Positions 3,076 through 64,000 of a stretch of DNA of 64,000 nt are shown piece by piece. Position 1 is the first letter of the stretch. Every line of letters starts with the position of its first letter. The notes beneath the pieces were generated by a model. That model saw only the letters and a program-made list of their open reading frames with translations. It made no database searches and was not told where the DNA came from. The position numbers and the translations under genes were made by a program. Origin of the DNA: Undaria pinnatifida (taxonomy: Eukaryota > Sar > Phaeophyceae > Laminariales > Alariaceae); assembly GCA_012845835.1 (NCBI GenBank), contig JABAKD010000023.1, positions 17,910,751 to 17,974,750 of the forward strand, written 5' to 3'.

Positions 3076-3099
3076 TCGCTTTTTGTCGTATAATCACTA

Positions 3100-7341: not shown

Positions 7342-7359
7342 TCAAGCTCGTCGACGCCA
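7342..7359 (-). promoter_or_regulatory. candidate tRNA primer-binding site, copy A
   Basis: Two bases inside the 5' LTR the minus strand reads TGGCGTCGACGAGC. It starts with TGG, the complement of the tRNA CCA end, at the expected distance from the LTR. The priming tRNA is not identified. Confidence 0.4.
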
Positions 7360-7361
7360 CA

Positions 7362-26540: not shown

Positions 26541-26970
26541 CGGTCGTACTCCGTAGCGGCTCTGGAAAACGGGTCGGAAAAATCGGCGATGCCCTTGGCG
26601 CTGCCTTTGCGGTACTCGAGTGTGCAATCGAACGCGGTGACGAACTCAAGCTACCGCTGGACTCGTGCATTGAGGGTCCCCACTTTGCCAATGCTCTCCT
26701 ATGTCTTGTGGCCGAAGGATATGCAGAACTTTGTTCCCCTCAGTATCCTCGGAGGCGTTTGGGAACCCAAGCAATGCTGCCGGTCCCCAAATCTAGAGGA
26801 GTCCAGTGCCTCTCCGAGTCGAGCGTTGCTCGACTGATATACGCGATTTTCATAGTGAACAAAACGTCGTCCAGCGTCACAGTACCCTCGACGAAACAGG
26901 GGCAGTGTTCTGACATCGCAAAGTCAGGGCCGACGCTAGAAGCTATTTCCACAACTTCACGGCTTTTCAT
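26541..26970 (-). pseudogene. RNase H remnant and PR-RT deletion junction, copy B
   Basis: Frame reads CFVEGTVTLDDVLF then TMKIAYISRATLDSERHW, then LDLGTGSIAWVPKRLRGY. The junction (about 26839-26860) is at the same place as in copy A. Protease, RT and the RNase H N-terminus are absent. Confidence 0.85.
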
Positions 26971-27144
26971 TGGCCAACGCGCTCGAGAAATAGGTCGGAA
27001 ACGCCGAAGGGGAAGCCTTGCGAGCGCTGGCCGCTGTTAACGGTTCGATTGCGGCGCGGACGAGATTTCTTGGTTCTTGCACTCGCAGTGCAGGTGCGGA
27101 ACCGACTAGGGGAGGCCGGGTGCACCGACCCGGTCTCATTGTCG

Positions 27145-27605
27145 CAAATAGCTGCGCGAACGGCAGAAAGTGCCTCACCGAGCAAGTATTTCCTCTCCCC
27201 TGGCGTGGGTTGTTGGCCCTGGGACCATCCGTCCGGAGGCCAATGCCCCACACTGGGTTCAGAGGGCTGGATTCAGCCAGAATCTTGTTGTCAGAGCTCA
27301 AGAGGTGATTTTTTTATGGCTGGATTCTGCGTGAATTTGGCGTAGGTGCCAGGCGACACGGCGTTTTGCTTCTCTCTGTCCCCAACAGCGGAGTCAAAGT
27401 TGCGCACGCCTCGACCGATGCGTTTGCGTATGCTTGGACGAGGCGACGACATAATGAGCCCCACTGCTCGATGGTCTTGCAAAAACTTGGTCTTTTCGGC
27501 CATCATGTATTGCTCCGCGCAAGAATATGGTACCTCGTCCACGGCAAACGACGAAGGGGACCACGGTGGAAAATAGGATGGGGGCTGCCAGAATAACACC
27601 ACGTT
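27145..27605 (-). pseudogene. NADAR (YbiA-like) domain, copy B
   Basis: Minus-strand frame 27291-27695 holds the N-terminal part: LFWQPPSYFPPWSPSSF, SCAEQYMMAEK, GRGVRNFD, KFTQNPA. After a frameshift near 27290, NKILAESSPLNPVWGIGL continues in a second frame, and after another, NLLGEALSAVRAAI in a third. Gly replaces the Trp after NFD, as in copy A. It is located between the 230-bp repeats and the protease-side junction. Confidence 0.85.
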
Positions 27606-27654
27606 GGCTGTGGAGTATTCGAGAGAAGGGTCAAAATCCGTGTTGAAATTTGGG

Positions 27655-28390
27655 CTGCAATGTCCCCGTCCGGGAACACCAGGCCTCGGGAGCACGACGC
27701 GAATCCGAACCCGTGGTATCTCGCCTCGGGTCTTTCTTCGCTCGTTGGCGGAAAAGCGCGAGAATCTGCTCTAACTGCGCCCGAAAAATGGCAAAAACCG
27801 ACGGTGCCAACCCGTCGGTAGCCTCGTTGGACATTTGTGGGTCTGCAATGTCCCCTTTGGGGAACACCAGTCCTCGGGAGCAACATGCGAGTCCGAACCT
27901 GGGGTTTCTCGCCTCGGGTCCTCCTCACTCGCTGGCGGAAACTCGTAAGAAGCCACCCTCATTGCACCCGAAAACGAGTCCAACACCGACGGTGCCAACC
28001 CGTCGGTAGCCTCGTTCGGCATTTGGGTCTGCAATGTCCCCGTCTGGGAACACCAGTCCTCGGCTCTTTGGCCTGTAATGTCCCCTTGCGGGAGCACCAG
28101 GCCTCGGGAGCAACATGCGAGTCCGAACCTGGGGTTTCTCGCCTCGGGTCCTCCTCACTCGCTGGCGGAAACTCGTAAGAAGCCGCCCTCATAACACCCG
28201 AAAAAGAGTCCAACACCGACGATGCCAACCTGTCGGTAGCCTCGTTGGGCATTTGGGTCTGTAATGTCCCCGTCTGGGAACACCAGTCCTCGGCTCTTTG
28301 GGCCTGTAGTGTCCCCCTCAGGAACACCAGGCCTCGGGAGCACGACGAGAGTCCGAACCCACGGTTTCTCGCGTCGTGGCCTCTTCGCTT
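27655..28390 (-). repeat. ~230-bp tandem repeats in Gag-NADAR linker, copy B
   Basis: Repeat starts at the TCTGYAATGTCCCC box: 27842, 28028 and 28258 (spacings 186 and 230). At least one more unit than copy A. Coding content includes EDWCSQTGTLQTQ and NEATDGLAPSV. Confidence 0.82.
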
Positions 28391-31300
28391 TTTGGCGTAT
28401 ACTCGCAAGAAGACTTCTCTAACTGCGCCCGAAGGGGCAGGGGCTCTGAGCTGTTTCTGCTTGACGAGAGGCGCGATTCTTCCGTAAATTTACGGGAATA
28501 GCGTCCAGCTGATCAGGCTGGAGGCCGTGGAGTCCTCACTGGCCCGTCGCGCAGTGTCGGATCTTCTTCCTGTGCCACTGGGGCAGACGTAGCCTGAAAC
28601 ACGTGGGTTAGCGTGTCAAAAGACGAAGCAGGGTCCGTAAAACCTGTGGGCGTCTTCTGGAGCGGGGCTCGGGCACGGCAGAAATATTTTTACCCGAGGA
28701 GGCTCTCTTCCGTTATGTCTTTTGGAGAAGGGAGACGAGGTAGCTAATCTTGTCGACTCCTCCTTGATGGAAAAAAGGACAGAGCGCCCGCTCTTATCGC
28801 GAGCAAACACCGGATCGAGCCTCGCAAAAGATCTCGGTGTTTTAGTGTTGGCTTTCCCACACCTCAAATCGACCGCCACCTCGTGGTCAGAAAAAGTGTT
28901 TCGAGGGTCGACCGTCCCACACCTCAAACCGACCGCCACCGCCTGGTCAGGGAGAGGGGGGGATGCACACATACGCGTAAAAAGGCGACGCGCCGTCGCT
29001 GCAGCTATATTGTCGCGCGGCGCGTACCTAGAGGGGGAGCGCGCAAAGCGTAGGCTCCCGTGCCATGGTTGATGGGGGCGGCGTTTGGAGCGCGTACCCC
29101 CATTGCTGAGTTTATGCCGCGGCTGAGGGAAACGGCGCTGGAAGCGCGGTTCCCGTTGCCGAACTCAGACCATGACCGAGGGGAACGTCGCTGAAAGCGC
29201 GCGTTCTCGCGGTCGAAAAAGAAAGAAAGAAAAGAAAAAAAAATATCTGGCTGGAGGAAACAACGCTTGAAGCGCTAGTTTCCGCCGCCGGTACTACGGC
29301 GTGAGAATCGTCCGCAGACGGCGTAGGAGCCCGTGGGCTCTTGACAGAGGCAAACTGTGCTGCATTACTGGACAGGATAGCAACAGAACACAAGCATCTT
29401 CTGAAACCAAAATAGGTACCCCCCGACAGTGTTGTCGACGGTGCCGTACCGCCGTCGAGCTGTCGATTGCCGTTACGGAATGTGCCAGGTTGGCGCGCAA
29501 ATTTATTTTCGCCCGGGTTGTGGGCGGCTCCAAAGCGCATTCGAGAAGCGGGAGCGGGGGCAGAAGAGGCGGGCGAGCGCAGGATATCACCATGGTGATC
29601 CGACGTCTATGTGGCATCGTTGTGACAGTCTACCTGGCCCTGATCCTGAAAGATGGCGACGATTCTTCTTGTGGTTGTTCGGGCGAGAAGATTTGTCGTC
29701 TCGGCGGTAGCAGACCATGCGTGTTTGTCAACGTCGGTGTGCGTCATCGTCGCCTAGTTGGTCAAGTTCAGGGTTCAAGCAGCCACTCGCAGTAATTAAA
29801 GGATGCCTACAATGCTTGAAGGAATGGTTGTCTTCGTGGCAGTTGAGGCAAAACCCCCGGTTTTCTCGGAGGGCATTAGCGCGAGGTGAAAGGAGGCCGC
29901 TCCAAAGGGGAGGGTCGTCTGTCTTAAACGAGGCCTTAACGGCGAAACCTTTTGCATAATGATGCTCTTCTAGTGGCCAGCAGTTCGATGTGTGGTCAAG
30001 CCAAGGGTCAGATGAATCATTGATGGGCATGACAGTTGAATGATGGCTCGATCCCGTCTGCCACGAAAGCGACTGGGACGGCACTCGGCCCTGGCCGCGC
30101 CCATGATCTGCGGGCCGGGGCCCCGACAGGGCGCATGACCGCGCTCCCGTCGAAGAAACAGGGAGAGAAAAAAATGTTTCGCCGTTGACGGCAGGTGTCT
30201 TATTAGTCACTAAAAGCCCACCACATAGCATCCAACGAGGCGTATGGCCGCGGGTTTGTTGCCTTCGAACAGGGTACAACGCAGGCAGGAGAGCCGGAAA
30301 TTGCTCATTCGCCGCCACCCGAACCACCTCCAACACCACATCCGTTCCCGGAGACAAAACACGCTCACTCCGCGTAGCGGTCAGCATAAGTACGCGAGAC
30401 TCCACTGAAAAAACAAAAAGGCATGTCGTTACACATTCCAAAAGTATGCCACTTAGTGTAGCCCTCCTCCGTGTCAACCCCGTCGAAGAGCGTGATCAGC
30501 AGACGCAACAGGAGGGTGAAAGCCTCAGGCAGATGCTCCTCCTGCCATGGCTCTTGACACGTTTTGCCTGCTACCACGACCACCTCGCTGTGGTCCGTGC
30601 TCGAGGACGAAGACGAGCGGGAGAAGGTTGACGAGCCGTCCCACGCTGAACGTCTTCTCGCGCCATTCCTCTGCCAGAGCGGCGGCCAACTGCCCCGGTT
30701 GTTGGACGGAAGTTGCCCCCTCGGCGGCGCCCTCAGGCACACCAGCACCCGATGCGCTGTCACCCCCGCGGCGGTGGTGGTGGTCGCCACCCCCACCATT
30801 TTTGCCGCCACCCCCACGGTTGCGGTCCCCGCGGTCGCGACTGTCGCGACATTTCCCTGGTTTCGTTCTGCCAACTCTTCCTCCGGGGTCCGGCCAAAAG
30901 ACAGGGTCGGGGTCCTCGTCGTGGGCTATCAGCAGGGCCTTGACGAGGGCAAGGGTCGGGGCGGCTCTCGTCTGTCTAGCATAGGGCGTACATTCCACGC
31001 AAGTCCAGGCCGCTTCCATTGAGGACGTCCGCTTGCCGCGACGCCGGCCTCTCTGACGGGAGGAGGGGGTAGGCCGTTTCCACCGCCGCGGGTCGCCAAC
31101 GCTGAGGAGAAGTCTACCCGCGGTACAGACGCCATGCACGCGACGATGCCCTTGAAGAAGGCGTCGTTCCCGGGTCGTGGTCGCTGGGATGCGACACCCT
31201 GCGGGCGCGACGAAGGCAAGGAGGCCGCGGTAGCTCCCGCCGCAGCCGACGCAACTGACGACTCCCGCGCAGCGGTCTTCGCCTGCTCGATATCTTCGTC

Positions 31301-31787
31301 AAACCGACGTCGGCGTGCTATCGTCTGGTTGGCGTCGTCGAGCGCCCGCTGGGCCCGCGCCGCCGCGTATGCCAAGTCCAAGGGGGCGGCATGGGCGCCC
31401 CGGTCCCGGGAGCTCTGGGGGTGGCGCTCTGTCGAGCGCGGAGAGCCCAGGTGGCGGCGGTGGTGCCCTGTCGAGCGCGGGGGGGGCAGCTGGTGGCGCT
31501 TCCCCGGGGCTGGCGAGAGCTGGCGTCGAGACGCCCCCGAGTCCGGTGGGGGTTGGTCCGTCTTCTTCTCAGCGCGAACCAGCGAGTCGACCCGCTTGGT
31601 TGGTGGGAACGGGTGGAGGCATGGTGCTCCGTCTTCTGTCTCGTCACCGGAACCCGCCACCGGTGGTTCCCCCCGTCTCGAGTCGCGGGATCTCGAGCGA
31701 GCTCTCCCTGTCTCGTGGGCATCCAGGTTGGGGTGCGTGGAAGACCTCAGCCAGCCCCGAGTAGCCCCCATCGTCACTGGTGGACAT
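28391..31787 (-). pseudogene. Gag polyprotein, copy B
   Basis: Start at the ATG 31785-31787 (MSTSDDGGYSG). Same order as copy A: basic/Pro-rich N-terminus, alanine-rich helical stretch (YAAARAQRALDDANQT), Gly/His-rich part, a capsid-like region in the 29728-30477 frame, and an intact CX2CX4HX4C knuckle (CLNCHEDNHSFKHC, 29809-29850). Frameshifts separate N-terminal pieces, and a stop follows DDDAHRR before the rest of the linker. Confidence 0.78.
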
Positions 31788-31794
31788 GGTGCAT

Positions 31795-34700
31795 AGGTGT
31801 AGTGAAGGGGCGGGGGGGGGGATTGGAACGACGCGTGAAGAAGCTATGGAGGCAGATAAATTGTTGTGGTGTTCCTGCTCCAAGTAGCGGTATATCTGTG
31901 TTTCAGCAAACAGCAACAATATGGGCCTTGACTCCGTCCAGCCTGAGTGATGGTAGCAGCCACGTCAACTAGCCGTATAAGAGGAGTACAGCAGTATCAA
32001 GGTACCTATCATCATAACCGCAACATAAGAGCAGCGCCCAGTCTGACCGTAGGGTATATGGGTAACGCCCGCACGATCCGCAGTACAAGGAGCCAAAACT
32101 AGGCAGCACTGACCCTAACCGCAGTGCAGGGGGTGCAACACAGTAAGGGTACGTCTGAAGCCATCGCACTAAAACAGGCATCATTCAACCTAGGAGGGGG
32201 AAGGTAGCACAGGAAGCGTCGCCCAAAACGCCCACGCTCATCGGACCAAAACAAGCAGCATTTACCCGAGATATAGTGTAGGGGTTATCACAATACAGGT
32301 TCGCCCAACACGCCGACGCTCATCGCACATAAACAGGCAGGGTTTAACCTAGGTGTAGCGTGGGGGGAAACACAGAAGGTTCGCCAAACACGCCGACACT
32401 CACCGCACCAAAACGGGCAGCATTTACCCTAGGTGTAGAGTAGGGGTTATCACAGAAAAGGTTCGCCCAACACGCCGACGCTCATCGCACAAAAACGGGC
32501 AGCATTTACCCTAGGTGTAGTGTTGGGGTGGAAGCACAGTGTAAGATCGCCAAACACGCTGACACTCGTCGCACCAAAACAGGCAGCATTTACCCCAGGT
32601 GTAGTGTAGGGGTGGAAGCACAGTGTAAGATCGCCCAACACGCTGACACTCGTCGCACCAAAACGGGCAGCATTTACCCTAGGTGTAGTGTAGGGGGGGA
32701 GCACAATGAAATGTAGCCCAACACGCTGACACTCGTCGAACCAAAGCAGGCAGCGTTTAACATAGGTGTAGTGTAGGGGTGGAATCACAGTGTAAGGTCG
32801 CCCAACACGATGACACTCATCGCACCAAAACGGGCATCATTTGACCTAGGTGTAGTGTAGGGGGGGAGCACAGTGAATGTCACCCAACACGCTGATACTA
32901 GTCGCACCAAAACAGGCAGCATTTCACTTAGGTGTTGTGTAGGGGTGGAAGCACAGTGAAAGGTAACCCAACACGCTGACACTCGTCGCACATAAACAGG
33001 AAGCATTAAACCTAGGTGTAGTGTAGGGGTGGAATCACAGTGTAAGATCGCCCAACACGCTGACACTCATCGCCATGAAACGGGCAGCATTCACCCTAGG
33101 TGTAGTGTAAGGGGGAAGCACAGTGAGAGGTCGCCCAATACGTTGACACTCGTCGCACCAAAACAGGCAGCATTTACCCTAGGTGTAGTGTAGGGGTGGA
33201 AGCACAGTGCAAGACCGCCCAACACGCTGACACTCGTCGCACCAAAACAGCCAGCATTTACCCTAGGTGTAGTGTGGGGGTGGAAGCACAGTGTAAGATC
33301 GCCCAACACGCTGACACTCGTCGCACCAAAACGGGCGGCATTTACCCTGGGTGTAGTGTAGGGGGGGGGCACAGTGAAAGGTCACCCAACACGCTGACAC
33401 TCGACGCACCAAAGCAGGCAGCATTTACCCTAGGTGTAGTGTAGGGGTGGAAGCACAGTGTAAGATCGCCCAACACGCTGACACTCATCGCAACAAAACG
33501 GGCAGAATTTAACCTAGATGTAGTGTAGGGGGGGAGCACAGTGAATGTCACCTAACACGCTGACACTAGTCGCACCAAAACAGGTAGCATTTAACCTAGG
33601 TGCAGGGTAGGGGGGGGAGCACAGTGAAAGGTCACCCAAACCGCTGACACTCGACGCCCCAAACAGGCAGCATTCACCCTAGGTGTAGTGTAGGGGTGGA
33701 AGCACAGTGTAAAATCGCCCAACACGCTGACACTCCTCGCACCAAAACAGGCAGCATTTACCCTAGGTGTAGTGTAAGGGTGGAAGCACAGTGTAAGATC
33801 GCCCAACACGCCGACACTCGTCGCAATAAAACGGGCAGCATTTACCGTAGGTGAAGTGTAGGGGGGGAGCACAGTGAAAGGTCACCCAACACGTTGACAC
33901 TCGTTGCACCAAAGCAGGCAGCATTTAACCTAGGTGTAGTGTAGGGGTGGAATCACAGTGTTAGATCGCCGAACACGCTGACACTCATCGCACCAAAATG
34001 GGCAGCATTTAACCTACATGTAGTGTGGGGGGGGAGCACAGTGAATGTCACCCAACACGCTGACACCAGTCGCACCAAAACAGGCAGCATTTACCCTACG
34101 TGTAGGGTAGGGGGGGAGCACAGTGAAAGGTCACCCAACACGCTGACGCTCGACGCCCCAAACAGGCAGCATTCGCTCTAGGTGTAGTGTAGGGGTGGGA
34201 GCACAGTGTAAGATCTTCCAACACGTTGACACTCATCGCACCAAAATGGGCAGCATTTAACCTAGGTGTAGTGTAGGGGTGGAAGCACAGTGTAAGATCG
34301 CCCAACACGTTGACACTCGTCGCACCAAAACAGGCAGCATTTACCCTAGGTGTAGTGTAGGGGGGAAGCACAGTGAAAGGTCGCCCAACACGCTGACACT
34401 CGTCGCACCAAAACAGGCAGCATTTAACCTAGGTGTAGTGTAGGGGTGGAAGCACAGTGTAAGATCGCCCAACACGCTGACACTCGTCGCAACAAAACGG
34501 GCAGCATCTACCCTAGGTGTAGTGTAGGGGGGAAGAACAATGAAAGGTCACCCAACACGCTGACACTCGTCGCACCAAAACAGGCAGCATTTAACCTAGG
34601 TGTAGTGTAGAGGTGGAAGCACAGCGTAAGATCGCCCAACACGCCGACATTCATCGCACCAAAACGGGCAGCATTTAACCTAGGTGTAGTGTAGTGGGTG

Positions 34701-37700
34701 AGCACAGTGAATGTCACCCAACACGCTGACACTCGTCGCACCAAAACAGGCAGCATTTACCCTAGGTGTAGTGTGGGGGTGGAAGCACAGTGTAAGATCG
34801 CCCAACACGCTGACACTCGTCGCACCAAAACGGGCAGCATTTACCCTGGGTGTAGTGTAGGGGGGGGGGCACAGTGAAAGGTCACCCAACACGATAACAC
34901 TCGACGCACCAAAGCAGGCAGCATTTACCCTAGGTGTAGTGTAGGGGTGGAAGCACAGTGTAAGATCGCCCAACACGCTGACACTCGTCGCAACAAAACG
35001 GGCAGCATTTACCCTAGGTGTAGTGTAGGGGGGGAGAACAGTTAAAGGTAACCCAACACGCTGACACTCGTCGCACCAAAACAGCCAGCATTTACCCTAG
35101 GTGTAGTGTAGGGGTGGAAGCACAGTGTAAGATCGCCCAACACGATGGCACTCATCGCAACAAAACGGGCAGAATTTAACCTAGATGTAGTGTAAGGGGG
35201 AAGCACAGTGAATGTTGCCCAACACGCTGACACTAGTCGCACCAAAACAGGCAGCATTTAACCTAGGTGTAGGGTAGGGGGGGGAGCACAGTGAAAGGTC
35301 ACCCAACACGCTGACACTCGACGCCCCAAACAGGCAGCATTCACCGTAGGTGTAGTGTAAGAGTGGAAGCACAGTGTAAGATCGCCCAACACGCTGACAC
35401 TCTTCGCACTAAAACGGGCAGCATTTACCCTAGGTGTAGTGTGAGGGTGGAAGCACAGTGTAAGATCGCCCAACACGCCGGCACTCGTCGCACCAAAACG
35501 GGCAGCGTTTACCCGAGGTGTAGTGTAGAGGGGGAGCACAGTGAAAGGTCACCCAACACGTTGACACTCGTTGCACCAAAGCAGGCAGCATTTAACCTAG
35601 GTGTAGTGTAGGGGTGGAATCACAGTGTAGGATCGCCCAACACGCTGACACTCGTCGCACCAAAACAGGCAGCATTTACCCTAAGTGTAGTGTAGGGGTG
35701 GAATCACAGTGTTAGATCGCCGAACACGCTGACACTCATCGCACCAAAATGGGCAGCATTTAACCTACATGTAGTGTGGGGGGGGGCACAGTGAATGTCA
35801 CCCAACACGCTGACACTAGTCGCACCAAAACAGGCAGCATTTACCCTACTTGTAGGGTAGGGGGGGAGCACAGTGAAAAGTCACCCAACACGCTGACGCT
35901 CCACGACCCAAACAGGCAGCATTTATTCTATGTGTAGTAGAGGGGTGGGAGCACAGTGTAAGATCTTTCAACACGTTGACACTCATCGCACCACAACGGG
36001 CAGCATTTAACCTGGGTGTAGTGTAGGGGTGGAAGCACAGTGTAAGATCGCCCAACACGTTGACACTCGTCGCACCAAAACGGGCAGCATTTACCCTAGG
36101 TGTAGTGTAGAGGGGGAGCACAGTGAAAGGTCACCCAACACGCTGACACTCGTCGCACCAAAGCAGGCAGCATTTAACCTAGGTGTAGTGTAGGGGTGGA
36201 ACCACCGTGTAGGATCGCCCAACACGCTGACACTCGTCGCACCAAAACAGGCAGCATTTACCCTAGGTGTAGTGTGGGGGTGGAAGCACAGTGTAAGATC
36301 GCCCAACACGCTGACACTCGTCGCACCCAAACGGGCAGCATTTACCCTAGATTTAGTGTAGGGGGGGGGGCACAGTGAAAGGTCACCCAACACGCTGACA
36401 CTCGACGCACCAAAGCAGGCAGCATTTAACCTAGGTGTAGTGTCGGGTTGGAAGCACAGTGCAAGATCGCCCAACACGCTGACACTCATGGCACCAAAAC
36501 GGGCAGCATTTCACCCATATTTAGTGTAGGGGGGGAGCACAGTGAATGTCACCCAACACGCTGACACTAGTCGCACTAAAACAGGTAGCATTTATCCTAG
36601 GTGTAGTGTAAGTGGGGAGCACAGTGAAAGGTCACCCAACACGTTGACACTCATCGCACCAAAACGGGCAGCATTTAACCTAGGTGTAGTGTAGGGGTGG
36701 AAGCACAGTGTAAGATCGCCCAACACGCCGACAATCGTCGCACCAAAACGGGCAGCATTTACCCGAGGTGTAGTGTAGGGGGGGAGCACAGTGAAAGGTC
36801 ACCCAACACGTTGACACTCGTTGCACCAAAGCAGGCAGCATTTAACCTAGGTGTAGTGTAGGGGTGGAATCACAGTGTAGGATCGCCCAACACGCTGACA
36901 CTCGTCGCACCAAAACGGGCAGCATTTACCCTAAGTGTAGTGTAGGGGTGGAATCACAGTGTTAGATCGCCGAACACGCTGACACTCATCGCACCAAAAT
37001 GGGCAGCATTTAACCTACATGTAGTGTGGGGGGGGAGCACAGTGAATGTCACCCAACACGCTGACACTAGTCGCACCAAAACAGGCAGCATTTACCTCAC
37101 GTGTAGGGTAGGGGGGGAGAACAGTAAAAGGTCACCAAACACGCTGACACTCCACGCCCTAAACAGGCAGCATTCATCCTAGGTGTAGTGTAGGGGTAGG
37201 AGGACAGTGTAAGATCGCCCAACACGTTGACACTCATCGCACCACAACGGGCAGCATTTATCCTGGGTGTAGTGTAGGGGTGGAAGCACAGTGTAAGATC
37301 GCCCAACACGTTGACACTCGTCGCACCAAAACGGGCAGCATTTACCCTAGGTGTAGTGTAGAGGGGGAGCACAGTGAAAGGTCACCCAACACGCTGACAC
37401 TCGTCGCACCAAAGCAGGCAGCATTTGACCTAGGTGTAGTGTAGGGGTGGAACCACCGTGTAGGATCGCCCAACACGCTGACACTCGTCGCACCAAAACA
37501 GGCAGCATTTACCCTAGGTGTAGTGTGGGGGTGGAAGCACAGTGTAAGATCGCCCAACACGCTGACACTCGTCGCACCAAAACAGGCAGCATTTAACCTA
37601 GGTGTAGTGTAGGGGTGGAAGCACAGTGCAAGATCGCCCAACACGCTGACACTTATCGCACCAAAACGGGCAGCATTTAACCTAAGTGTAGTGTAGGGGT

Positions 37701-40276
37701 GGAAGCACAGTGTAAGATCGCCCAACACCTTGACACTCGTCGCACCAAAACGGGCAGCATTTACCCTAGGTGTAGTGTAGGGGGGGAGCACAGTGAAAGG
37801 TCACTAAACACGCTGACACTTGTCGCACTAAAACAGGTAGCATTTAACCTACGTGTAGTGTAGCTGGGGAGCACAGTGAAAGGTCACCCAACACGTTGAC
37901 ACTCATCGCACCAAAACAGGCAGCATTTAACCTAGGTGTAGTGTAGGGGTGGAAGCACAGTGTAAGATCGCCCAACACGTTGACACTCGTCGCACCAAAA
38001 CGGGCAGCATTTACCCTAGGTGAGTGTAGGGGGGGAGCACAGTGAAAGGTCACCCAACACGCTGATGCTCGACGCCCCAAACAGGCAGCATTCACCCGAG
38101 GTGTAGTGTAGGGGTGGAAGCACAGTGTAAGATCGCCCAACACGTTGACACTCATCGCACCAAAACGGGCAGCATTTAACCTAAGTGTAGTGTAGGGGTG
38201 GAAGCACAGTGTAAGATCGCCCAACACGTTGACACTCGTCGCACCAAAACGGGCAGCATTTACCCTAGGTGTAGGGTAGGGGGGGAGCACAGTGAAAGGT
38301 CACTAAACACGCTGACACTTGTCGCACCAAAGCAGGCAGCATTTAACATAGGTGTAGTGTAGGGGGGGGGCACAGTGAAAGGTCACCCAACACGCTGACA
38401 CTCGACGCACCAAAGCAGGCAGCATTTAACCTAGGTGTAGTGTCTGGATGGAAGCACAGTGCAAGATCGCCCAACACGCTGACACTCATCGCACCAAAAC
38501 GGGCAGCATTTCACCCATATTTAGTGTAGGGGGGGAGCACAGTGAATGCCACCCAACACGCTGACACTAGTCGCACCAAAACAGATAGCATTTAACCTGG
38601 GTGTAGTGTAAGTGGGGAGCACAGTGAAAGGTCACCCAACCCGTTGACACTCATCGCACCAAAACAGGCAGCATTTAACCTAGGTGTAGTGTAGGGGTGG
38701 AAGCACAGTGTAAGATCGCCCAACACGCCGACACTCGTCGCACCAAAACGGGCAGCATTTACCCGAGGTGTAGTGTAGGGGGGGAGCACAGTGAAAGGTC
38801 ACCCAACACGTTGACACTCGTTGCACCAAAGCAGGCAGCATTTAACCTAGGTGTAGTGTAGGGGTGGAATCACAGTGTAGGATCGCCCAACACGCTGACA
38901 CTCGTCGCACCAAAACGGGCAGCATTTACCCTAAGTGTAGTGTAGGGGTGGAATCACAGTGTTAGATCGCCGAACACGCTGACACTCATCGCACCAAAAT
39001 GGGCAGCATTTAACCTACATGTAGTGTGGGGGGGGAGCACAGTGAATGTCACCCAACACGCTGACACTAGTCGCACCAAAACAGGCAGCATTTACCTCAC
39101 GTGTAGGGTAGGGGGGGAGCACAGTGAAAGGTCACCAAACACGCTGACACTCCACGCCCTAAACAGGCAGCATTCATCCTAGGTGTAGTGTAGGGGTGGG
39201 AGGACAGTGTAAGATCGCCCAACACGTTGACACTCATCGCACCACAACGGGCAGCATTTATCCTGGGTGTAGTGTAGGGGTGGAAGCACAGTGTAAGATC
39301 GCCCAACACGTTGACACTCGTCGCACCAAAACGGGCAGCATTTACCCTAGGTGTAGTGTAGAGGGGGAGCACAGTGAAAGGTCACCCAACACGCTGACAC
39401 TCGTCGCACCAAAGCAGGCAGCATTTGACCTTGGTGTAGTGTAGGGGTGGAACCACCGTGTAGGATCGCCCAACACGCTGACACTCGTCGCACCAAAACA
39501 GGCAGCATTTACCCTAGGTGTAGTGTGGGGGTGGAAGCACAGTGTAAGATCGCCCAACACGCTGACACTCGTCGCACCAAAACAGGCAGCATTTAACCGA
39601 GGTGTAGTGTAGGGGTGGAAGCACAGTGCAAGATCGCCCAACACGCTGACACTTATCGCACCAAAACGGGCAGCATTTAACCTAAGTGTAGTGTAGGGGT
39701 GGAAGCGCAGTGTAAGATCGCCCAACACGTTGACACTCGTCGCACCAAAACGGGCAGCATTTACCCTAGGTGTAGTGTAGGGGGGGAGCACAGTGAAAGG
39801 TCACTAAACACGCTGACACTTGTCGCACTAAAACAGGTAGCATTTAACCTACGTGTAGTGTAGCTGGGGAGCACAGTGAAAGGTCACCCAACACGTTGAC
39901 ACTCATCGCACCAAAACAGGCAGCATTTAACCTAGGTGTAGTGTAGGGGTGGAAGCACAGTGTAAGATCGCCCAACACGTTGACACTCGTCGCACCAAAA
40001 CGGGCAGCATTTACCCTAGGTGAGTGTAGGGGGGGGAGCACAGTGAAAGGTCACCCAACACGCTGATGCTCGACGCCCCAAACAGGCAGCATTCACCCGA
40101 GGTGTAGTGTAGGGGTGGAAGCACAGTGTAAGATCGCCCAACACGTTGACACTCATCGCACCAAAACGGGCAGCATTTAACCTAAGTGTAGTGTAGGGGT
40201 GGAAGCACAGTGTAAGATCGCCCAACACGTTGACACTCGTCGCACCAAAACGGGCAGCATTTACCCTAGGTGTAGG
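31795..40276. repeat. 84-bp satellite array
   Basis: Around 95-100 head-to-tail units of 84 bp with core GACACTCGTCGCACCAAAAC, GGCAGCATTTACCCTAGGTG and TAGTGTAGGGG. Two subtypes alternate: one with GTGTAAGATCGCCC, one with GTGAAAGGTCACCC. Units are regular from about 32190 and decay leftwards through 32036; a last GGTGTAGTGAAGGGG match lies at about 31797, next to the Gag start of copy B. The right end is hidden by the gap. Since 84 is a multiple of three, long open frames occur by chance of period. Confidence 0.95.
36361..40276. repeat. 2.0-kb higher-order repeat in the satellite
   Basis: 36361-38275 recurs at 38361-40276 with an offset of 2000-2001 bp and about 99% identity. This is a block of about 24 monomers. 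A few substitutions between the two show it is not a simple assembly copy. Looser higher-order spacing (about 1250 and 1750 bp) links the same variant blocks at about 34000, 35750 and 37000. Confidence 0.85.
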
Positions 40277-40776
40277 NNNNNNNNNNNNNNNNNNNNNNNN
40301 NNNNNNNNNNNNNNNNNNNNNNNNNNNNNNNNNNNNNNNNNNNNNNNNNNNNNNNNNNNNNNNNNNNNNNNNNNNNNNNNNNNNNNNNNNNNNNNNNNNN
40401 NNNNNNNNNNNNNNNNNNNNNNNNNNNNNNNNNNNNNNNNNNNNNNNNNNNNNNNNNNNNNNNNNNNNNNNNNNNNNNNNNNNNNNNNNNNNNNNNNNNN
40501 NNNNNNNNNNNNNNNNNNNNNNNNNNNNNNNNNNNNNNNNNNNNNNNNNNNNNNNNNNNNNNNNNNNNNNNNNNNNNNNNNNNNNNNNNNNNNNNNNNNN
40601 NNNNNNNNNNNNNNNNNNNNNNNNNNNNNNNNNNNNNNNNNNNNNNNNNNNNNNNNNNNNNNNNNNNNNNNNNNNNNNNNNNNNNNNNNNNNNNNNNNNN
40701 NNNNNNNNNNNNNNNNNNNNNNNNNNNNNNNNNNNNNNNNNNNNNNNNNNNNNNNNNNNNNNNNNNNNNNNNNNNN
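40277..40776. other. assembly gap (500 N)
   Basis: Exactly 500 undetermined bases, a round number that is probably a placeholder. It begins inside the satellite, so the true array is longer than shown. Confidence 0.98.
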
Positions 40777-54745: not shown

Positions 54746-55692
54746 GTTTCAGAGTGCCGATAGATCAGAGCGCAAACGCCTCGCTACACGTGACGAGGTT
54801 GTTATATCGAGGGTCAAGTTATTCCGCACGTTCCTTCCCGGAAGATCGACACGTAGTATCACAGTGCTGCAAGAGTGTTAGTCCATGCTGCTACTTGATA
54901 AGCTACCGCCATAAACAAAAAACGATCCTTGAAAATGTTTGGCAACCTAGATTAAAACGCGTACCTGGTACATAGGATACGGTATCAGGTACGAACTCCA
55001 TAACAAACGCAGGAATATTGACTATCTTCGTCTGTACTCAAAATGTTCGTATACTACGTACATAAAATGTTTGAGCACCTAACTGTGGCCTCATAATCTA
55101 CCCCATTCCCCCTGCTCAATACTTTTGTGGTCCGGCATACAGCGGATACCGCTTATCATAACACTCTGCACACGCGCACGATAAGGGCGGGGGAAGTTGA
55201 GGGGGTGATCAAACCAAAGGAGGCTTAAACATAATCAAAATCCTATCATCAATCATTGTCAAGCAAAGCATGTCAGATTACAATATCATATTTATGATAC
55301 AGTGCGAGGCATAACCGGGACAAGATCAGGGTGGAATCTTCAGTCTAACGAAAAAAACGCATCCCGATATTTCCACCACATATTGCATCATAAAACGTGA
55401 GTAACAGTATATTTCCTCACTACCGGTTTCTTCATTTCGTGTACCGCACTATGCTAGATCGCTGGTGAGGTTGACAACCAGCTATTCTGGAAGTAACCCG
55501 CATTGTGTAAGACAAAACAAATACCACGTATGTTGTCATCGCCTCTCGTGCGTACCCGAAATATAATACTACTGGTACTAACAATACCCATCATCATCTC
55601 CCGGGCGTACCTTGAATATAGTACTACTGGTGCTAACGATACCCCTACAGCCATCAGCCGTCACCAATTTATCTGTAAAACCGGATGACGTA
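54746..55692. other. intergenic DNA between copia fragment and gypsy copy C
   Basis: No gene. A two-unit 55-bp repeat at 55551-55645 (CGTACC, TACTACTGGTRCTAACRATA). Confidence 0.55.
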
Positions 55693-56016
55693 TGTTAAAT
55701 TAAAGGAGGGGGACACAGAGTGCCCCCTGCAGGTCTGCCAATTGAGCAGGTCCTCGGAGAGTACTCACTTTCGTTCCTTCGTAGAGATGTAGCTTTATTC
55801 GTTTCAACCAGAGCCCGGGATAGCTTCTGAGATCGGAGGCACGTGCCTCCGATCTAATTTCTAACTTTCCCGAATATAAAACGCCAACCTTATCATAGTG
55901 CCTCCGATCTAATTTCTAACTTTCCCGAATATAAAACGCCAACCTTATCATACGAAACCCATCCAAATGGTCTCAAATTCGGATACCTACAGGCCTTTCG
56001 AGGCCGTATCTTAACA
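55693..56016 (-). repeat. 3' LTR of gypsy copy C
   Basis: 324 bp from TGTTAAATTAAAGG to CGTATCTTAACA. It is 55 bp longer than the LTR of copy B because of an internal tandem duplication, 55843-55897 and 55898-55952 (GTGCCTCCGATCTAATTTCT to TTATCAT). Confidence 0.93.
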
Positions 56017-56872: not shown

Positions 56873-57290
56873 TCAACTGGCCACGGCCGCGCCTCGAGAT
56901 TCGTCTACGTTACGTTGGATTCCCCGAGGAAACGCACTGGCGATGTGAACTTGCAAGCACCAAGGACCTCCTACGGCTCCCGTTGAAGTCGTGTAGCGCG
57001 CCGGGGGAAGAGGAAGTTTAATCGGTCCCGGGTGGTCCAGAAAGCGGACCAGGTATACCTTGTCCTCGGTAGGGCTCGCGCTGATTTTTCGAAGCCACCC
57101 AAAACCATCGTTTCCCTTGTACCAAAAGCGGGCTCCCTTAGGGAGTACTGTGTCGTGGTAGCGACGGAGCCAATCGGCGCGGGGAACACAGGCGTAGCCC
57201 GGCGCTAGGAAACGTTCCCCGTTGTTGCGGGAGAGCTCACGCTGTACCGCTCCGATCCGCATTCGGCGGTAAAGGCGGTTGGTTGGCGGT
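56873..57290 (-). pseudogene. Tudor-like C-terminal domain, copy C
   Basis: Frame ending at 56873 with RNNGERFLAPGYACVPRADW, FWYKGNDGFGWLRKI and VYLVRFLDHPGPIKL. Same domain as in copy B. A one-base deletion near 57285 puts it out of frame with the chromodomain. One core Trp is altered (GWL where B has WWL). Confidence 0.72.
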
Positions 57291-60126
57291 GCTGGTCCGG
57301 GGTTCCGGCCCAATAGCGCAAGATGTGGGAGCGGGAGAGGTGAAGGTCCATTTCCCGCTCCCAGGACGGTTCGGGGAGTCCCGCCCAATGCGTCTTGTAT
57401 AGCACCGCGATGACGCCACCTCGCCCCCGTACCGACTGATGACCATTGATCTGCTCCACCTCCAGCCGTTGGAGGGGAGTCGAAACGTCGTCTTGAGTGA
57501 CGTGGTACGGCGGGGACTTCTTGGAAAATATGTTGAGCACATACTGTGTCAGCCCCGTCGGTAGGTATTTGGGCATGTCCCCGCTGTCGTGGGGGTTGGC
57601 ACAGGGTTTGCAGCGCTCGATGGTCACACGCCGACGAGCGTCCGAACCAGGCAGGTCGGAAGGGAGATCCCAATAAAGGAGGTTGCTCCCGAGCGGAGAG
57701 CCGTCCGGTGTCTCGGCGGCGGAGCAGGGACCGACGGCCAGGACCTTGTATGGGCCCGTCCAGTTAAGCGCGAGTTTGGCCTTGAGTACCTTGGCGTCGG
57801 TATTCGCCTTCACACCCTGGCGGATGGTAAAGGCATAATTGTATACCCATGCCCAACCACCCACAGTGAAGTTAGGTGCTGGACGCAGCGCGTCGGCGAG
57901 GGCGGAGTTTCTGCGGTTAACACGGGAAACGGTGAGGGCGTGGTGTGCGCGGACAATGTCGTTCGCGCGCTTTTGCCGGTCGGTGGCCAAATCGCAATAG
58001 GCCAGGTGGTCACGGGCCAGACTCTGGTGTCCCACGACACCTGTGCGGTCGAAAATCGTCAGGGGGAGCCGTGGGAGTCTGCCCATGTGGACCTCGTTGG
58101 GCGTCAAACCCGTCGCCGCGCTGACAGAGTTGTTGTAAGCGAATTCTACGTGGGGCAGATGCAAGTCCCAGTCGTCTTGTCGCTCGTTGACGACCATAGC
58201 CAGCATTTGTGCCATAGTGTGATTTACCCGCTCAACGCACCCGTTACAGTTGGAATAATAGGAGCTTGTAGCAAGCTTGTGTACACCTAACAGCTGATAT
58301 GCAGCTTGTGAAAGCTTGGAGCAGAACTGCAGTCCGTTGTCCGAGAGTGTGGTGCGCGGGCACCCCCACAAGGGGATGTATTGGTTCACCAGGATATTGG
58401 CTGCACCTTCCGCGGTGAACTCAGCGTGAGTGACGGGGAACATGTCGGCCCGACGACTGAAGCGATCGGTGAACAGCAGGGTGTAGGTGTTGCCTCGTGG
58501 TGTGACCGGAAGGGGGCCGAAGTAGCCAACACTGACGGCGATACCTGGACCTTCCGGCAGAGGCATTGTGATGATGGGCCAGCGGACAGTCAGCCGTGGG
58601 GTTTTCCGCGCTTTGCACTTCAAGCAGTGGCGAAGCCACCACCAGGTGCACACACTCATGCCAATCCACCAATAAAAACGCTCCAGCATGCGCAACGTGC
58701 GCGTGGTGCCAAGGTGGCAGGAGGCCGTCGAGTGGCAAGCTTGCATGATCCAAGGGCGCATGAGCAGGGGAACGTAGATGCGAACTGGCTCGTCGTTTAG
58801 CAAGCAAGCAGCTCGCCCCACAGAGTTCGGTTTGTCAGAGCTTGTTGGCGGGAGTGTCGGGTTACGGACGTGTAGGACGAAGTCGTCGTCGGTTGTATGT
58901 AGTCGACCCTTACCCGCCAGTGCCTGGATGCCTGAGAGGGAGGGACGCTTGGGCGAGGGGTAGCATGCCAAGAAGTCGGGTGGCAGGGCCGACGGCCGGC
59001 CGATAGAGATGTAACGTATCGTGGCGTGGCACGTCGGCTCTGCGTGTTGTTCGCGCTTCCAATCGGCATGTGAATAACGCGCGACGGAATCCGCGAATCG
59101 CAACTCAGCAGCGTCGCCGAGGGCATCCGACCTTGTAAGTGCAGCCGGCGTTTCACCAGGAGGAGGCGTAAGCCGTAGGAGCGGAGTTCCCATAGGCTCT
59201 GCGTGGTCGTGGTCGGACGGAAGTGGTACCGTGCGGGCCGGCGGGTCGGCAAGAGTAGGGGTCGCGGCGACTGGCGGAGCCGGCCGCGGCCGTCGGGCTC
59301 GCGGCGGAGTTGTAACTCGTCTGGACGATGGCTGGGGGACCCCGCCGGGCCCGAAGCCATAGTCGACAGCAGGGGGTGCCTTACCAGCTGCTGTTGCTGA
59401 ACGCCGGCGCGTCCGAGTGGAGATGCGGTCCGAAAAAGGCGTCATCGTCTGGGGCGCCGGAGATCCAGGCGAGGTTGGGACGGACGCGGTCGGGCCCATG
59501 GGCTCGACGGGGTTTGTCCCTTGTACCGAACTCCGGGAAGGAGTCGGTTGGGCCACTGATGTCGTGGCAGCCGGGGCTTCGGCGGAGTCCTCGTTGGTCA
59601 CGGTGGGTACAGCAAAAACCGAATCGAAATCGTAGTCGGCTGTACGCGAGCCCCCGCTTCGGCCGGGCGAGCTATCGACGGTGGCGGTGGATGCAGAAAC
59701 ACGAGCGACGAATCTCCTGGAAGGAGTAGGAAGGTCGTCAAGCCTCATACGTGGCCCGTGTGTGCGAAAATCGCAAAAGTTGGCAAGAGTAAGAGGAAGC
59801 CCACCCAAGGCATTACTTTCGGTACGGGGCATTAGCCCACCCAAGCCGACACCCGGTACCGGAAAAGAAGGAGTGTACAGCTCGCAAGCCCGTATGAGGT
59901 AAATGCCACCATCCTCAACAGGGGTAAGGCTCGTCGAACCATTGCGGCCGTGTTCCGTGGCAGTCTCCGGCAAGCAAGACAGGAAGTCAGCGTTGACGTT
60001 TGCGCTTCCTTTTCGGTATTCGAGGGTGTAATCGAATGCGGTGAGGAACTCGAGCCATCTATGGACTCGGCCGTTGTGACTCCCCACTTTGCCTATGTTT
60101 TCCAGAGCCTTGTGGTCTGAGAACAT
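57205..60126 (-). pseudogene. Pol C-terminal ORF: RNase H end, linker, integrase, chromodomain, copy C
   Basis: 973-residue open frame directly following a TGA. Residues 1-50: RNase H C-terminus (FSDHKALENIGKVGS, WLEFLTAFDY, LEYRKGSANVNADFLSCLP). About 51-460: Ser/Pro/Thr-rich linker. About 468-512: H2C2 zinc domain (CHLGTTRTLRM to HCLKCKARK). Core: second Asp 596 (LSDNGLQF) and Glu 632 (VERVNHT), the D35E spacing, but residue 534 is Gly (SVGYFGPLP) where copy B has the first catalytic Asp. GPY motif NWTGPYKVLAV near 790. Chromodomain about 886-939 (VEQINGHQS, LYKTHWAGLPEPSWE, ILRYW). The end is frameshifted. Confidence 0.92.
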
Positions 60127-61047
60127 TCAGAACTTGGTGCTCCAAAGGTAGCCGCGGAGGCGCTTGAGAGCCCAGACGATGCTGCCAGCCTCCAAATCGA
60201 GAGGAGGCCAATGCCTTTCGGAGTCGAGCGTAGCTCGACTGATGTATGCGATGGGTTTTATGGAGCCGTCCGTCTGCTCCCGTTCGAGAGCGGCTCCGAA
60301 CCCGTTGATGCAGGCATCGCAGTACACGTGGAACGGGCGTGTGCCGTCGGCGACGGCGTCCCAATCAGGGAAAACGAGGACCGGCGGGGTCGTGAGCTCC
60401 GCCAAGATTTCTCTCACCAACTTCTCCATAGCAGGCGTGAAGGCAAACTTTACCCCCTTCCGAAGGAGTGGGTTAATAGGACGAAGTCTCTTCGATAAGT
60501 CGAGCAAAAATTTGCGGTAATAGTTGATACCACCCATGAGTGCGCGCACCTGCTTAACGTCAGTGGGCATTGGCATATTGGTCAATGCCGACACTTTTTC
60601 CGAATTTGGGCGTAGGCCTGCTGGAGAAATGGAGTGGCCTAGAAAGCTCGCATCGGTAGCGCCCAAAAGCTCCTTCGAGGGGGAAAGCTTGAGATTGTGC
60701 TTTCGAAGGCGTTCGAAGAGAGAGCGAATCGTCCGAACATGCGTTACCGGGTCGGAGTCGAACACGATGACATCGTCGAGGTAAGCTGCCACCTGTGTCA
60801 AGCCTTTGATCACCTCATTGATAACCTTGACGAACCACCCAGGCAAGCCGCTGCTGCCCTGAGGCATAACGAGCCACTCATAAAGGCCCGTGGGTGTGCA
60901 GAACGCTGTAAGGGGAACTGTGTCCTTGTGTGCCGTTATCTGGTGGAACGAGGAAACCAAGTCGAACAGGGAAAACACCCGACCTGAGCCTAAGGAGTCC
61001 AGGACCTGGTCCACGCGCGGAATCGGCAGTTGGCTGAGCTTGCTAAT
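60127..61047 (-). pseudogene. reverse transcriptase and RNase H N-terminus, copy C
   Basis: Open from 61047 to the TGA at 60127, in frame with both flanking ORFs. RT motifs: VFSLFDLVSSFHQI (first catalytic Asp), AFCTPTGLYEWLVMPQG, AAYLDDVIVFD (catalytic Asp pair), HNLKLSPSKE, ASFLGHSIS, GGINYYRKFL. RNase H starts with FHVYCDACINGFGAALE and AYISRATLDSERHW. The TGA lies after LWSTKF, just before MFSDHKALE of the next ORF. RT residues appear intact. Confidence 0.93.
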
Positions 61048-62330
61048 TTATTTGAGTTTTTTGTAGTTCACCGTGATCCTCACACCGCCAGATTTCTTCG
61101 GGACGACCACCAGCAGGCTCGAGTACGGTGAGGTCGAGTGCTGAATCAGCCCAGCTGCGAGGTACTGGTTAAGGGTCGCGTCCACTTCTCTGGCCAGTAT
61201 AGGGTTTATGCGATGGGGCCGTGAAGTGACCGGAGCGCTGCCCTCCGGAACCGAGATTTCAAAGGGCATTAGAGAGCATGACCCAAAATCCGTCTTCGAG
61301 GTGGAGAACACGTCAGAAAAGTCGCAGAGCACATCCCCCAGTTGCTCAATGGTCGGGGGGTCCCAACCAGGGTCGTGTAAGTCAAACGCAATCTCCCGCA
61401 GGTGCGGTGGGAGTCGGGCCCAGACGCGTAGAAATGCAGAACGTTGGGCTGGGTTCAAACGTTCCATAAGCGTCGGCGAGGGCGGCGGTACGGCGGGAGC
61501 TATCCCCTCCGCGTCCGTCGGGCTCGCGACCGCAGAGACCTGGCTGTCCGAAGTCTGGCCAGAGTGGGGACCCGCAGCCTTGATAGGGTGTTGCAAGGCA
61601 CCCAGCCGAATGCGCAAAAGTGGGGCGTCGGCGACCCCGACAAGGTCGCCTGGCTCGAGGTCCGCGACACCTATGACGGGAAGCCCCTGTCGTCCTGAAG
61701 CAACAAAGTGTTTCTGTCCCGAAAGAATATCCGGCTGCGGCACTATGTCGACAAGATAGTGTCCTGTAAGCGCAGGAGAGCCGTTACTGCGCACCAAGAG
61801 GACCGCGAGCAGTTGGGGCTCGTCCGACAAAGTGACACCTGTAGAGCCATCATAGCGAAGGTGGAAAGCACCGTTCGATGGTGCGGGATCGATGGCATAA
61901 GCCGCTACGCCTGCTGTGGCGTGGTGGGACAACGTCAGCTCGCCCAAAACCCGATTATTGAGAGGACGACGGGGCAGGGCGCGGTACGAACGGGTGTTGA
62001 AGCGCATCCAAATGTCGCGGCCCAGCAAGACAGCGTGCTGCATGACCGATGGAGGGACCACGCATGCCCACACCGCGAAAGAGCATGTCGGTTATTTTTC
62101 GAGGAAGAATTGAACGCTCAGACGGATGTGGGTCGCGGTCCGTAAAGGGGCGGATTCGCCAAAACCACCCCAGGAGCGAGGGCTGGTGGGCCGCTCGCAC
62201 GCCGATGAGGCGGTGCCTACCGATAGCATACGATCCAACACGTCACGTCGGATGAAGGTTTGGGGCGAGCCAGTGTCAAGCAGCGCTGTACATTTGTAGG
62301 GCGCAATGGCGTCTCCTCCGCTATGTACTG
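61048..62330 (-). pseudogene. retropepsin and RT N-terminal segment, copy C
   Basis: Protease active site CTALLDTGSPQTFIRRDVL at about 62241-62290 (DTGS at 62267-62277), later HAVLLGRDIWMRF, the usual second protease motif. Then a ~150-residue spacer, the conserved run to RT (LCDFSDVFSTSKTDFGS, RPHRINPILAREVDATL, GLIQHSTSPYSSLLVVVPKK, GVRITVNYKKLK). Stops: TAA 62092-62094 and TAA 61048-61050. Same frame as RT and integrase, and -1 relative to the NADAR frame. Confidence 0.88.
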
Positions 62331-63090
62331 CAATATCGGTAGTGAAGAATCGTCGTCCAGCGTCACGGTACCCCCGACGAGGCAGGGGCCATGTTCTGGA
62401 AGTGCGCGGTCTGAGGCGCGGCGAGAACCTATCGCCAAAACCTCCGGGCTTTGATCGGCGGGTGTACCCGAAAAATAGGCCGAAAGAGGGCCTTGGTCAG
62501 CGCCGACCGCGGTCCCCAAGCGCGACTGCTGAGCGGACAAAATTTCGTGGATTCCAGCATTCCCCGTGGGCCTGCGAAATCGACGAGGGGAGGCCGGGTG
62601 TGGCGATCCGTCCTCGCTGTCGCGAATTGCTTCGCGAACGGCAGAGAGTGCCTCACCGAGCAAATTTTGTCCTCTCCACTTGTGTGGATCCTTGGCGTGG
62701 GGGTCGTCCGCCCGGAGACCTATACCCCACACTGTGTCTAGAGGACTGGCCTCTGCCAGAAATTTGTTGCCAGTGCTCAAAAGATGATTTTTCATGGCTG
62801 GGTTCTGCGTAAATTTGGCATAGTTGCCAGATAACACGGCATTTTGCTTCTCCCTGTCCTAAACGGCGGTGTCAAAGTTGCGCACGCCTCGACCGACGCG
62901 TTTGTGTGTGCTAGGGTCAGACGATGACATGATGAGCTCCACTGCGCAATGGTCTTTAAAAAGCCGAGCCTTTTCAGCCATCATAAACTGCTCCGCGCAA
63001 GAATATGAGACGTCGTCGACGACAAACGACGAAGGAGACCACTGCGAGAAAAAGGACGGCGGTTGCCAGAACAACACTACTTTGCCTGTA
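62217..63090 (-). pseudogene. NADAR (YbiA-like) domain, copy C
   Basis: The best copy of the domain, all in one frame, 62622-63086. Motifs: VVLFWQPPSFFSQWSPSSF, YSCAEQFMMAEKARLFKD, GRGVRNFD, REKQNAV, YAKFTQNPAMKNHLLSTGNK, EASPLDTVWGIGL, WRGQNLLGEALSAVREAIRD. These are the family's N-terminal Glu/Lys motif, the W-x-G-x-GL motif and the NLLG-x-L-x-x-VR end. One break: TAG at 62859-62861 in place of the Trp expected after NFDTAV. Downstream about 120 residues lead to protease; the frame closes at 62217, overlapping the protease frame. Confidence 0.9.
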
Positions 63091-64000
63091 GAGTATTCGA
63101 GGGAAGGGTCAAAAGTCAACGGTGCCAACCCGTCGGAGGCCGTGTTAGGCATATGAGCTTGTAATGTCCCCGTCTGGGGACACCAGTCTCTGGCACATTG
63201 GGCCTGCAGCGTCCCCGTCTGGGAACGCCCGGCCTCGGGAGCACGGCGCGAGCCCGAACCCACGGGTGGTCGCGTCGTGGCCTTGTCGCTCTTTGGCGTA
63301 AAATCGCAAGGAACTGCTCTCACTGCACCCGAAGGGACAGGGGGCTCGGAGCTGTTACTGCTTGACGAGAGGCGCGATTCTTCCGTATCTTCACGGGAAT
63401 AGCGTCCAGCTGATCGGGCTGGAGGCCGTGGCGTCACCACTGGCCCGTTGCGCAGTGTCGGATCTATATCCTGTGCCACTGGGGCAGACGTAGCCTGGTG
63501 CACGTGGGTTAGCGTGCTTAAAGACGGAGCAGGGCCCGTAGACCCTGTGGGCGTCTTCGAGAGCGGGGCTCGGGCAAGTGGAAATAAATTCTTCGCCCGA
63601 GGGGGCTCCTTCCCGTTAGCCCTCTTGGAGGAGAGAGACGAGGTAGCTAAGCTTGTCGGCTCCTCCTTGATGGGAAAAAGGATAGAGCGCCCGCCACTAT
63701 CGCGAGGAGACACTGGATCAAATCTTGGAAAAGATCTCGGTGCATATGGGTTGGCTTTCCCACACCTCAAACCAACCGCCGCTTTACGGTCAGGAAGAGG
63801 TGGAGACGAACCCGCTCGCATATGGGGGCGACGCGTCGTCGCCGCAGTCTTCTTGCTGCGAGACGCGTGCCGGGGGGGAGCATGCAAGGTGCAGGCTCCT
63901 GAGTCATGGTTGAGGGGGGCAGCATTAGGGGCGCATGCCTCCGTTGTCGAGCTTGAGCCACGGCAGGGGTTAACGGCGTTGGAAGCGCTGGTCCCCATTG
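63090..64000 (-). CDS. Gag C-terminal/linker region, copy C (partial)
   Basis: Open to the window edge and in frame with NADAR. Ser/Pro/Arg-rich low-complexity sequence (SREDTEESRLSSSSNSSEPP, RPPVGSGSRRAPEAGRSQTG) with one unit of the DGLAPLTF repeat that is multiplied in copies A and B. It corresponds to about 2480-3850 in copy A; capsid and zinc knuckle lie right of the window. Confidence 0.78.

Follow-up and report, generated by a model that had tools for sequence, protein, structure and literature searches.

Fusion of a NADAR domain to retrotransposon proteins has been described in one paper among the literature matches listed, that of Dinatale et al. (2025; PMC12477816), according to the available text of which every family of one Ectocarpus Gypsy lineage, out of four, has NADAR. 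In the Ectocarpus lineage (Gypsy-12_Ec32), a YbiA-family NADAR lies at the N-terminus of Pol, together with a putative C-terminal chromodomain. The paper further reports NADAR from Tx1 LINEs of oysters, where it lies in ORF1, and suggests that the domain takes part in processing RNA intermediates. Horizontal transfer was considered possible because blastp searches outside Ectocarpus returned almost only bacteria; the available text contains neither a selection test on NADAR nor a sister among algal genes (PMC12477816).

According to the accessible portions of further studies, NADARs including the Phytophthora nicotianae enzyme reverse guanine ADP-ribosylation of DNA in vitro (PMC11543638), and NADARs also reverse guanosine ADP-ribosylation of RNA in vitro (PMC11833690). 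YbiA-type enzymes likewise reverse guanosine ADP-ribosylation (PMC11125620), and Escherichia coli YbiA acts as an N-glycosidase on riboflavin intermediates (PMC11543638). In the myxobacterium C. crocatus, a YbiA-type NADAR serves as antitoxin to the ART toxin YarT (PMC11125620). Among retroelements, orchid Ty3/Gypsy elements carry an AlkB/ALKBH5-like m6A eraser, for which an escape from host surveillance was proposed (PMC9289625).

The window analysed here, a stretch of 64,000 nucleotides from the brown alga Undaria pinnatifida, contains a decayed Ty3/gypsy element of a lineage in which Pol begins with a YbiA-subfamily NADAR domain; protease, RT, RNase H, integrase and a chromodomain-like tail come after it. 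A prior sequence-only reading of the window had left open whether such a fusion had been described; the NADAR-Pol fusion is already published (PMC12477816), and the window element is another example, not the first. New here are the selection on the domain, its retained residues and its likely algal origin, the last of which would change the published guess of bacterial transfer.

Organisation of the element and its copies

Copy C, which like all features of the three copies given here lies on the minus strand, spans from a 3' LTR-like repeat (55692-55897, ca. 90-92% to 22227-22443 and 7356-7573) to beyond the window end (64000). A Pfam profile search (PF08719) confirmed the NADAR domain that had been recognised by motif, in two parts: the 5' part in ORF 62859-63998 (E = 3e-15, profile 2-83 of 163) and the 3' part in ORF 62220-62858 (E = 1.9e-25, profile 87-163). 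Both parts are in one frame and are separated by a single TAG (62859-62861), located at a conserved Trp position. From the matched residues, the domain occupies 62622-63071. In the interval 62217-63090 that had been assigned to it, 62217-62621 is linker. The DTGS motif of the aspartic protease (62266-62277, in ORF 62092-62496) follows NADAR after ca. 115 codons (proposed spacing, about 120 residues) and is in another frame than NADAR in copy C. Because of this frame difference and the TAG inside NADAR, copy C is a broken version of the fusion. The four NADAR stretches of the window scored 57.3, 90.4, 93.7 and 69.2 bits against a Pfam gathering score of 35.1, and a chance match to NADAR was ruled out by the Pfam E values.

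Downstream of the protease motif, an ORF (61048-62091) situated between the protease and the RT core matched no Pfam family and is followed by the RT core and the start of RNase H (60127-61047; RVT_1, E = 2.2e-20; RT_RNaseH_2, E = 2.8e-21) and by an ORF with the rest of RNase H and integrase (57205-60126; Integrase_H2C2, E = 1.2e-10). The order DTGS, RVT_1, RT_RNaseH, H2C2 and rve is the PR-RT-RNase H-integrase order of Ty3/gypsy, with weak matches, below the cut-off, for the protease (Ty3 peptidase profile, E = 0.018) and rve (E = 3e-5). At the integrase C-terminus, a chromodomain-like stretch (57310-57465) was recognised by eye and had no Pfam match. Behind this tail, a further stretch (57014-57136, minus strand), located in a different ORF, looks Tudor-like by eye and resembles the end of the Ectocarpus sequence P0132; it likewise had no Pfam match. 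A repeat-rich coding stretch lies 5' of the copy C NADAR. Three LTR-like repeats of ca. 205-217 bp were found, and no copy has both ends within the window.

The other two copies also carry the domain. The Pfam stretch of the copy A NADAR (2066-2452, in ORF 1412-2461, E = 1.9e-26) has a same-frame stop just upstream, and the 5' LTR-like repeat of this copy is at 7356-7573. The copy B NADAR (27145-27605) is frameshifted, with a Pfam stretch at 27309-27593 (ORF 27294-27770, E = 6.3e-19), and the 3' LTR-like repeat is at 22227-22443. The sequence-only reading had claimed the same arrangement for copies A and B as for copy C. This holds for the presence of NADAR but not for the remainder, since the protease and most of RT are deleted in both: in a tblastn search with the protease and RT pieces of copy C, the edge of RNase H was all that matched in either copy, and the two copies have a common deletion junction (copy A ca. 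1721/1729, copy B ca. 26847/26853). The shared junction is most simply explained by one deletion predating the split of A and B. The deleted form may be a non-autonomous derivative, perhaps mobilised in trans, or a duplicated segment.

Copy B (22227-32160) is a mosaic, with an A-like 5' half and a 3' half ca. 95% identical to copy C. Its RNase H-integrase residues 1-225 are 92% identical to copy A and 74% to copy C, whereas residues 313-500 are 95% identical to copy C and 88% to copy A, which suggests recombination of deleted and intact lineages. All three copies are decayed. Tandem repeats of ca. 190-230 bp lie just 5' of NADAR in copy A (2523-3124) and copy B (27649-28433), and a satellite array of ca. 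83-84 bp units (ca. 32160-40300; spacings near 167 and 500) abuts the 5' end of copy B.

The proposed position of NADAR between Gag and protease fits by order, but the only sign of Gag in the NADAR copies is a CCHC zinc knuckle of copy B (29809-29850), likely Gag, ca. 2.2 kb 5' of NADAR; eight upstream ORFs of copies A and B matched no Pfam family at E up to 1. Across the six frames of the window, the CCHC motif was matched twice, against 0.2 matches expected from residue frequencies, and the second match (12354-12395) belongs to a copia-like element. This element (ca. 9421-13101, minus strand) has SH3_retrovirus and GAG-pre-integrase in ORF 10336-11649, with rve just below the cut-off.

Related proteins support the view that NADAR is a family feature of the element and not a chance insertion. 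In P0047, P0066 and P0087, a single clean open frame runs through NADAR and DTGS, so the NADAR-DTGS fusion is real; the first third of NADAR is missing in these three because the predicted proteins start at profile position 44-45. In P0068, both are found in one ORF with a frame-disturbed middle. NADAR occurs with RT and/or integrase in at least seven proteins, e.g., P0132 (7/120 among the matches listed, with 142 passed), in a protein search limited in length such that full-length NADAR-protease polyproteins were outside its range. Similar NADAR domains are present on many contigs, many with element-type flanks (among the 80 rows for which flanks were compared). Together with the selection described below, these observations support the family-feature claim. 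The element relatives are brown-algal, namely polyproteins of Ectocarpus sp. CCAP 1310/34 and an Undaria gene model labelled Undpi1 (P0204), whose element tail matches 22% of the integrase query at 93% identity. Bacterial contamination was ruled out, as several predicted proteins have the domain joined to genes of LTR elements.

Active-site residues and selection

The closest solved sequence to the element NADAR is the P. nicotianae NADAR (PDB 8BAU, E = 9e-13), the structure of which contains ADP-ribose (PMC11543638). The contact residues compared here are those of 8BAU as named in the available text of that paper, in which the residue at the E125 position also marks the subfamily (Glu, YbiA; Asp, BC4488 type; His, phage type). 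Copies C and A have Glu at this position, as do 79 of 92 element-type rows (1 gap), which places them in the YbiA subfamily. Copy C retains most of the 8BAU contacts (E43, K50, K75, G78, R79, V81, E125, D130 and W133), while F takes the place of Y84, T that of D86 and K that of R93, and the stop falls at W89. Among the 92 element-type rows, the counts are 79 for K50 (8 gaps), 86 for K75, 87 each for G78 and R79, 72 for W89, 82 for D130 and 84 for W133; E43 is found in 23 rows, with 66 gaps because those predicted proteins begin later. Trp is also present at the position of the copy C stop in 109/109 rows set aside as bacterial or unnamed. The element-type rows are P0001-P0119 with a domain match, minus five algal-gene rows and 22 that were manually classed as bacterial or otherwise unsuitable; as the flanks compared were those of 80 rows, individual assignments may be wrong. 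The comparison left out copy B, and its counts are not a neutral sample because predicted ORFs are biased towards intact copies. Aligned in this way, the element NADAR was shown to hold most residues of the predicted ADP-ribose site. The NCBIfam model TIGR02464, named 'riboflavin biosynthesis intermediates N-glycosidase', was above its cut-off for P0001, P0087 and P0132, whereas the window piece 62220-62858 alone scored 70.9 bits, just below the cut-off of 73.7.

Pairwise Nei-Gojobori dN/dS over the NADAR codons of three decayed sequences from one window was 0.31 (0.20-0.47) for C-A (170 codons) and 0.26 (0.16-0.40) for C-B (173 codons), i.e., purifying rather than neutral in the test that the sequence-only reading had proposed. 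For A-B, it was near neutral at 0.99 (170 codons; 1.02 [0.53-2.44] in a rerun). For C-A and C-B, the remaining two sense frames gave 0.99-1.80, which ruled out a codon-composition artefact. As expected, the antisense frame sharing third positions gave 0.35 and 0.26, while the other antisense frames gave 0.96-1.56; A-B ranged from 0.68 to 1.21 across all six frames. These values show past purifying selection on NADAR.

Over RNase H-integrase, dN/dS was 0.48 for C-A and 0.56 for C-B, and 0.71 (0.39-1.36) for C-B over integrase residues 313-825. In our reading, selection during the active period of the element constrained NADAR no less than the enzymes native to it, and this constraint was relaxed after the protease-RT deletion. 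The A-B value over RNase H-integrase residues 1-500, 0.50 rather than 1, counts against a simple relaxation story. Where copy B is A-like or undecided, A-B was 0.80 (0.45-1.64; residues 1-225) and 0.92 (0.43-2.82; residues 225-312), and it was 0.29 (0.17-0.51) over residues 313-500, where copy B is C-like. This low value would be explained if copy B had recombined with an intact lineage.

Origin of the domain

Among the 120 matches listed of 1173 in the domain search, most were 'ena' contigs, followed by standalone proteins and then by Nannocystis and other NADARs. Standalone NADAR proteins of Pylaiella, Ectocarpus and Scytosiphon are 54-59% identical to the domain (P0082, 61%) and Nannocystis NADARs 57-59%. 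Relative to copy C, the identities are 59% for the algal genes P0079 and P0086, 57% for Nannocystis P0097 and 54-60% for the Ectocarpus CCAP 1310/34 element rows P0132, P0178 and P0238. By plain identity, algal genes, Nannocystis and Ectocarpus elements are equally near copy C, giving no choice among them.

Trees were built without copy B. NADAR loci from viral contigs (n = 52) served as tree rows only, and a further 79 loci were found in prokaryote genomes. In a FastTree of 217 rows, the elements and five algal genes grouped with support of 89; in the first careful tree (75 rows), this group had 91/95, and the elements without P0168 had 99/94. Neither the 89 nor the 91/95 was starred. In the second careful tree (73 rows), for which the long row P0168 was dropped, eight element rows were added, and bacterial and outgroup rows were thinned, support was 98/94 for elements plus algal genes, 98/88 for the elements and 100/99 for the algal genes. 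In this tree, the window NADAR belongs to a clade of 14 element rows (98/99), from which three Ectocarpus CCAP 1310/34 element rows are separate. AU tests, run on the first careful set (75 rows) only, rejected neither a single clade of all 10 elements (p = 0.557) nor the placement of algal genes with bacteria and elements outside (p = 0.264) or of elements with bacteria and algal genes outside (p = 0.218). The trees favour an ancestor shared by the element domains and the algal genes and would be compatible with either direction, from gene to element or the reverse.

The standalone algal NADARs (P0079, P0086, P0105 and P0106 of brown algae, and P0082) are single-domain proteins. Four of the five, P0079, P0086, P0105 and P0106, have at their N-terminus a Cys/His motif, possibly a zinc finger, that is also present in P0301; Pfam searches of P0086 and P0301 matched only NADAR. 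The Branchiostoma protein P0241 has two tandem NADAR-like repeats by eye.

Standalone algal NADAR genes are likely to be the nearest kin of the element NADAR, so that the element probably acquired the domain from an algal gene and not straight from bacteria. A lesser but serious possibility is that the domain passed directly from bacteria to the element, with the algal genes acquired separately or domesticated from element copies. The Nannocystis identities and the AU tests, which keep trees separating elements from algal genes, both leave room for such a history, and an element-derived gene would give a sister pair too. Against it stand the joint clade of elements and algal genes recovered once the long row was dropped and the Cys/His motif, which hints at a greater age of the gene form.

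Possible function and comparison with known systems

Taken as a whole, our preferred reading, to which we give a probability of roughly 0.5, is that of a decayed Ty3/gypsy element with a selected, Pol-fused NADAR, probably captured from an alga, that acted as a guanosine ADP-ribose eraser on element RNA or cDNA. The conserved and selected domain fused to Pol is the observed part; the subsequent steps are inferred. NADAR would travel with Pol into the particle and there, in cis, could strip ADP-ribose from guanine of the element RNA or cDNA. Left in place, such a mark, set by an ADP-ribosyltransferase of the host, would prevent reverse transcription or integration. Removal of host-placed marks from the RNA or cDNA had also been proposed in the sequence-only reading. 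A PARP homologue is reported in the accessible text on Ectocarpus siliculosus (PMC4245714).

Selection on NADAR may also have acted through a non-catalytic role. Within the particle, a structural module or one that binds nucleic acid, ADP-ribose or NAD would suit the location towards Gag, which is the expected place for modules binding nucleic acid, and the variation of some contact residues (D86 and R93); however, catalytic-type K50, E125 and E43 are retained in most rows covering them and dN/dS over NADAR is low, and we consider this role unlikely. Similarly improbable is an action on small molecules, either as a YbiA-like N-glycosidase of riboflavin intermediates or as a sink for immune messengers derived from NAD or ADP-ribose. 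The name of TIGR02464 makes such a substrate possible for the element NADAR, and this model was above its cut-off for three sequences, as noted above. We know of no immune messenger of this kind in brown algae, and riboflavin clean-up is without obvious benefit to a retrotransposon. Although E. coli YbiA has such an activity (PMC11543638), YbiA-type enzymes reverse guanosine ADP-ribosylation too (PMC11125620). The decay of all three copies in the window could also suggest a passive passenger, i.e., a captured fragment without function, but the dN/dS of 0.26-0.31 against about 1 in other sense frames and the presence of NADAR in several element lineages largely refute this reading, which we regard as very improbable.

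If the eraser reading is true, a selected fused eraser would imply a matching ADP-ribose writer on transposon nucleic acid in brown algae. We know of no report of such a writer, and among the literature matches listed on brown-algal ADP-ribosylation, judged by title, none concerned one. More speculatively, and in our view rather doubtfully, brown algae might mark transposon or foreign nucleic acid by guanosine ADP-ribosylation, and this Gypsy lineage might have fused a captured algal eraser to its polyprotein so that the mark is removed inside the particle, as a eukaryotic transposon counterpart of the bacterial DarT-NADAR conflict. The element offers a direct handle on the search for an ADP-ribose substrate on its RNA and cDNA.

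Among the known systems, the P. nicotianae NADAR (8BAU) shares the YbiA subfamily and the conserved Glu with the element domain, but it has fold extensions, D86 and R93 differ in copy C, and the available text does not present it as part of a retroelement (PMC11543638). The C. crocatus YbiA, likened here by description, and the Nannocystis NADARs have the same YbiA-type core but are bacterial and standalone, that of C. crocatus being paired with an ART (PMC11125620). The standalone algal genes form the sister clade of the element domains and differ in being single-domain and, in four of five, in the Cys/His motif. The Gypsy-12_Ec32 lineage, also likened by description, agrees with the window element in NADAR leading Pol, the chromodomain-like tail of the latter having been recognised by eye (PMC12477816). 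The orchid m6A eraser differs in that it removes a methyl group, is encoded by a separate ORF and has an activity shown in vitro, whereas the window NADAR is known from its sequence; it is nevertheless the closest functional analogue, as in both cases a Gypsy lineage gained an eraser of nucleic-acid marks (PMC9289625), and NADAR would be its ADP-ribose counterpart.
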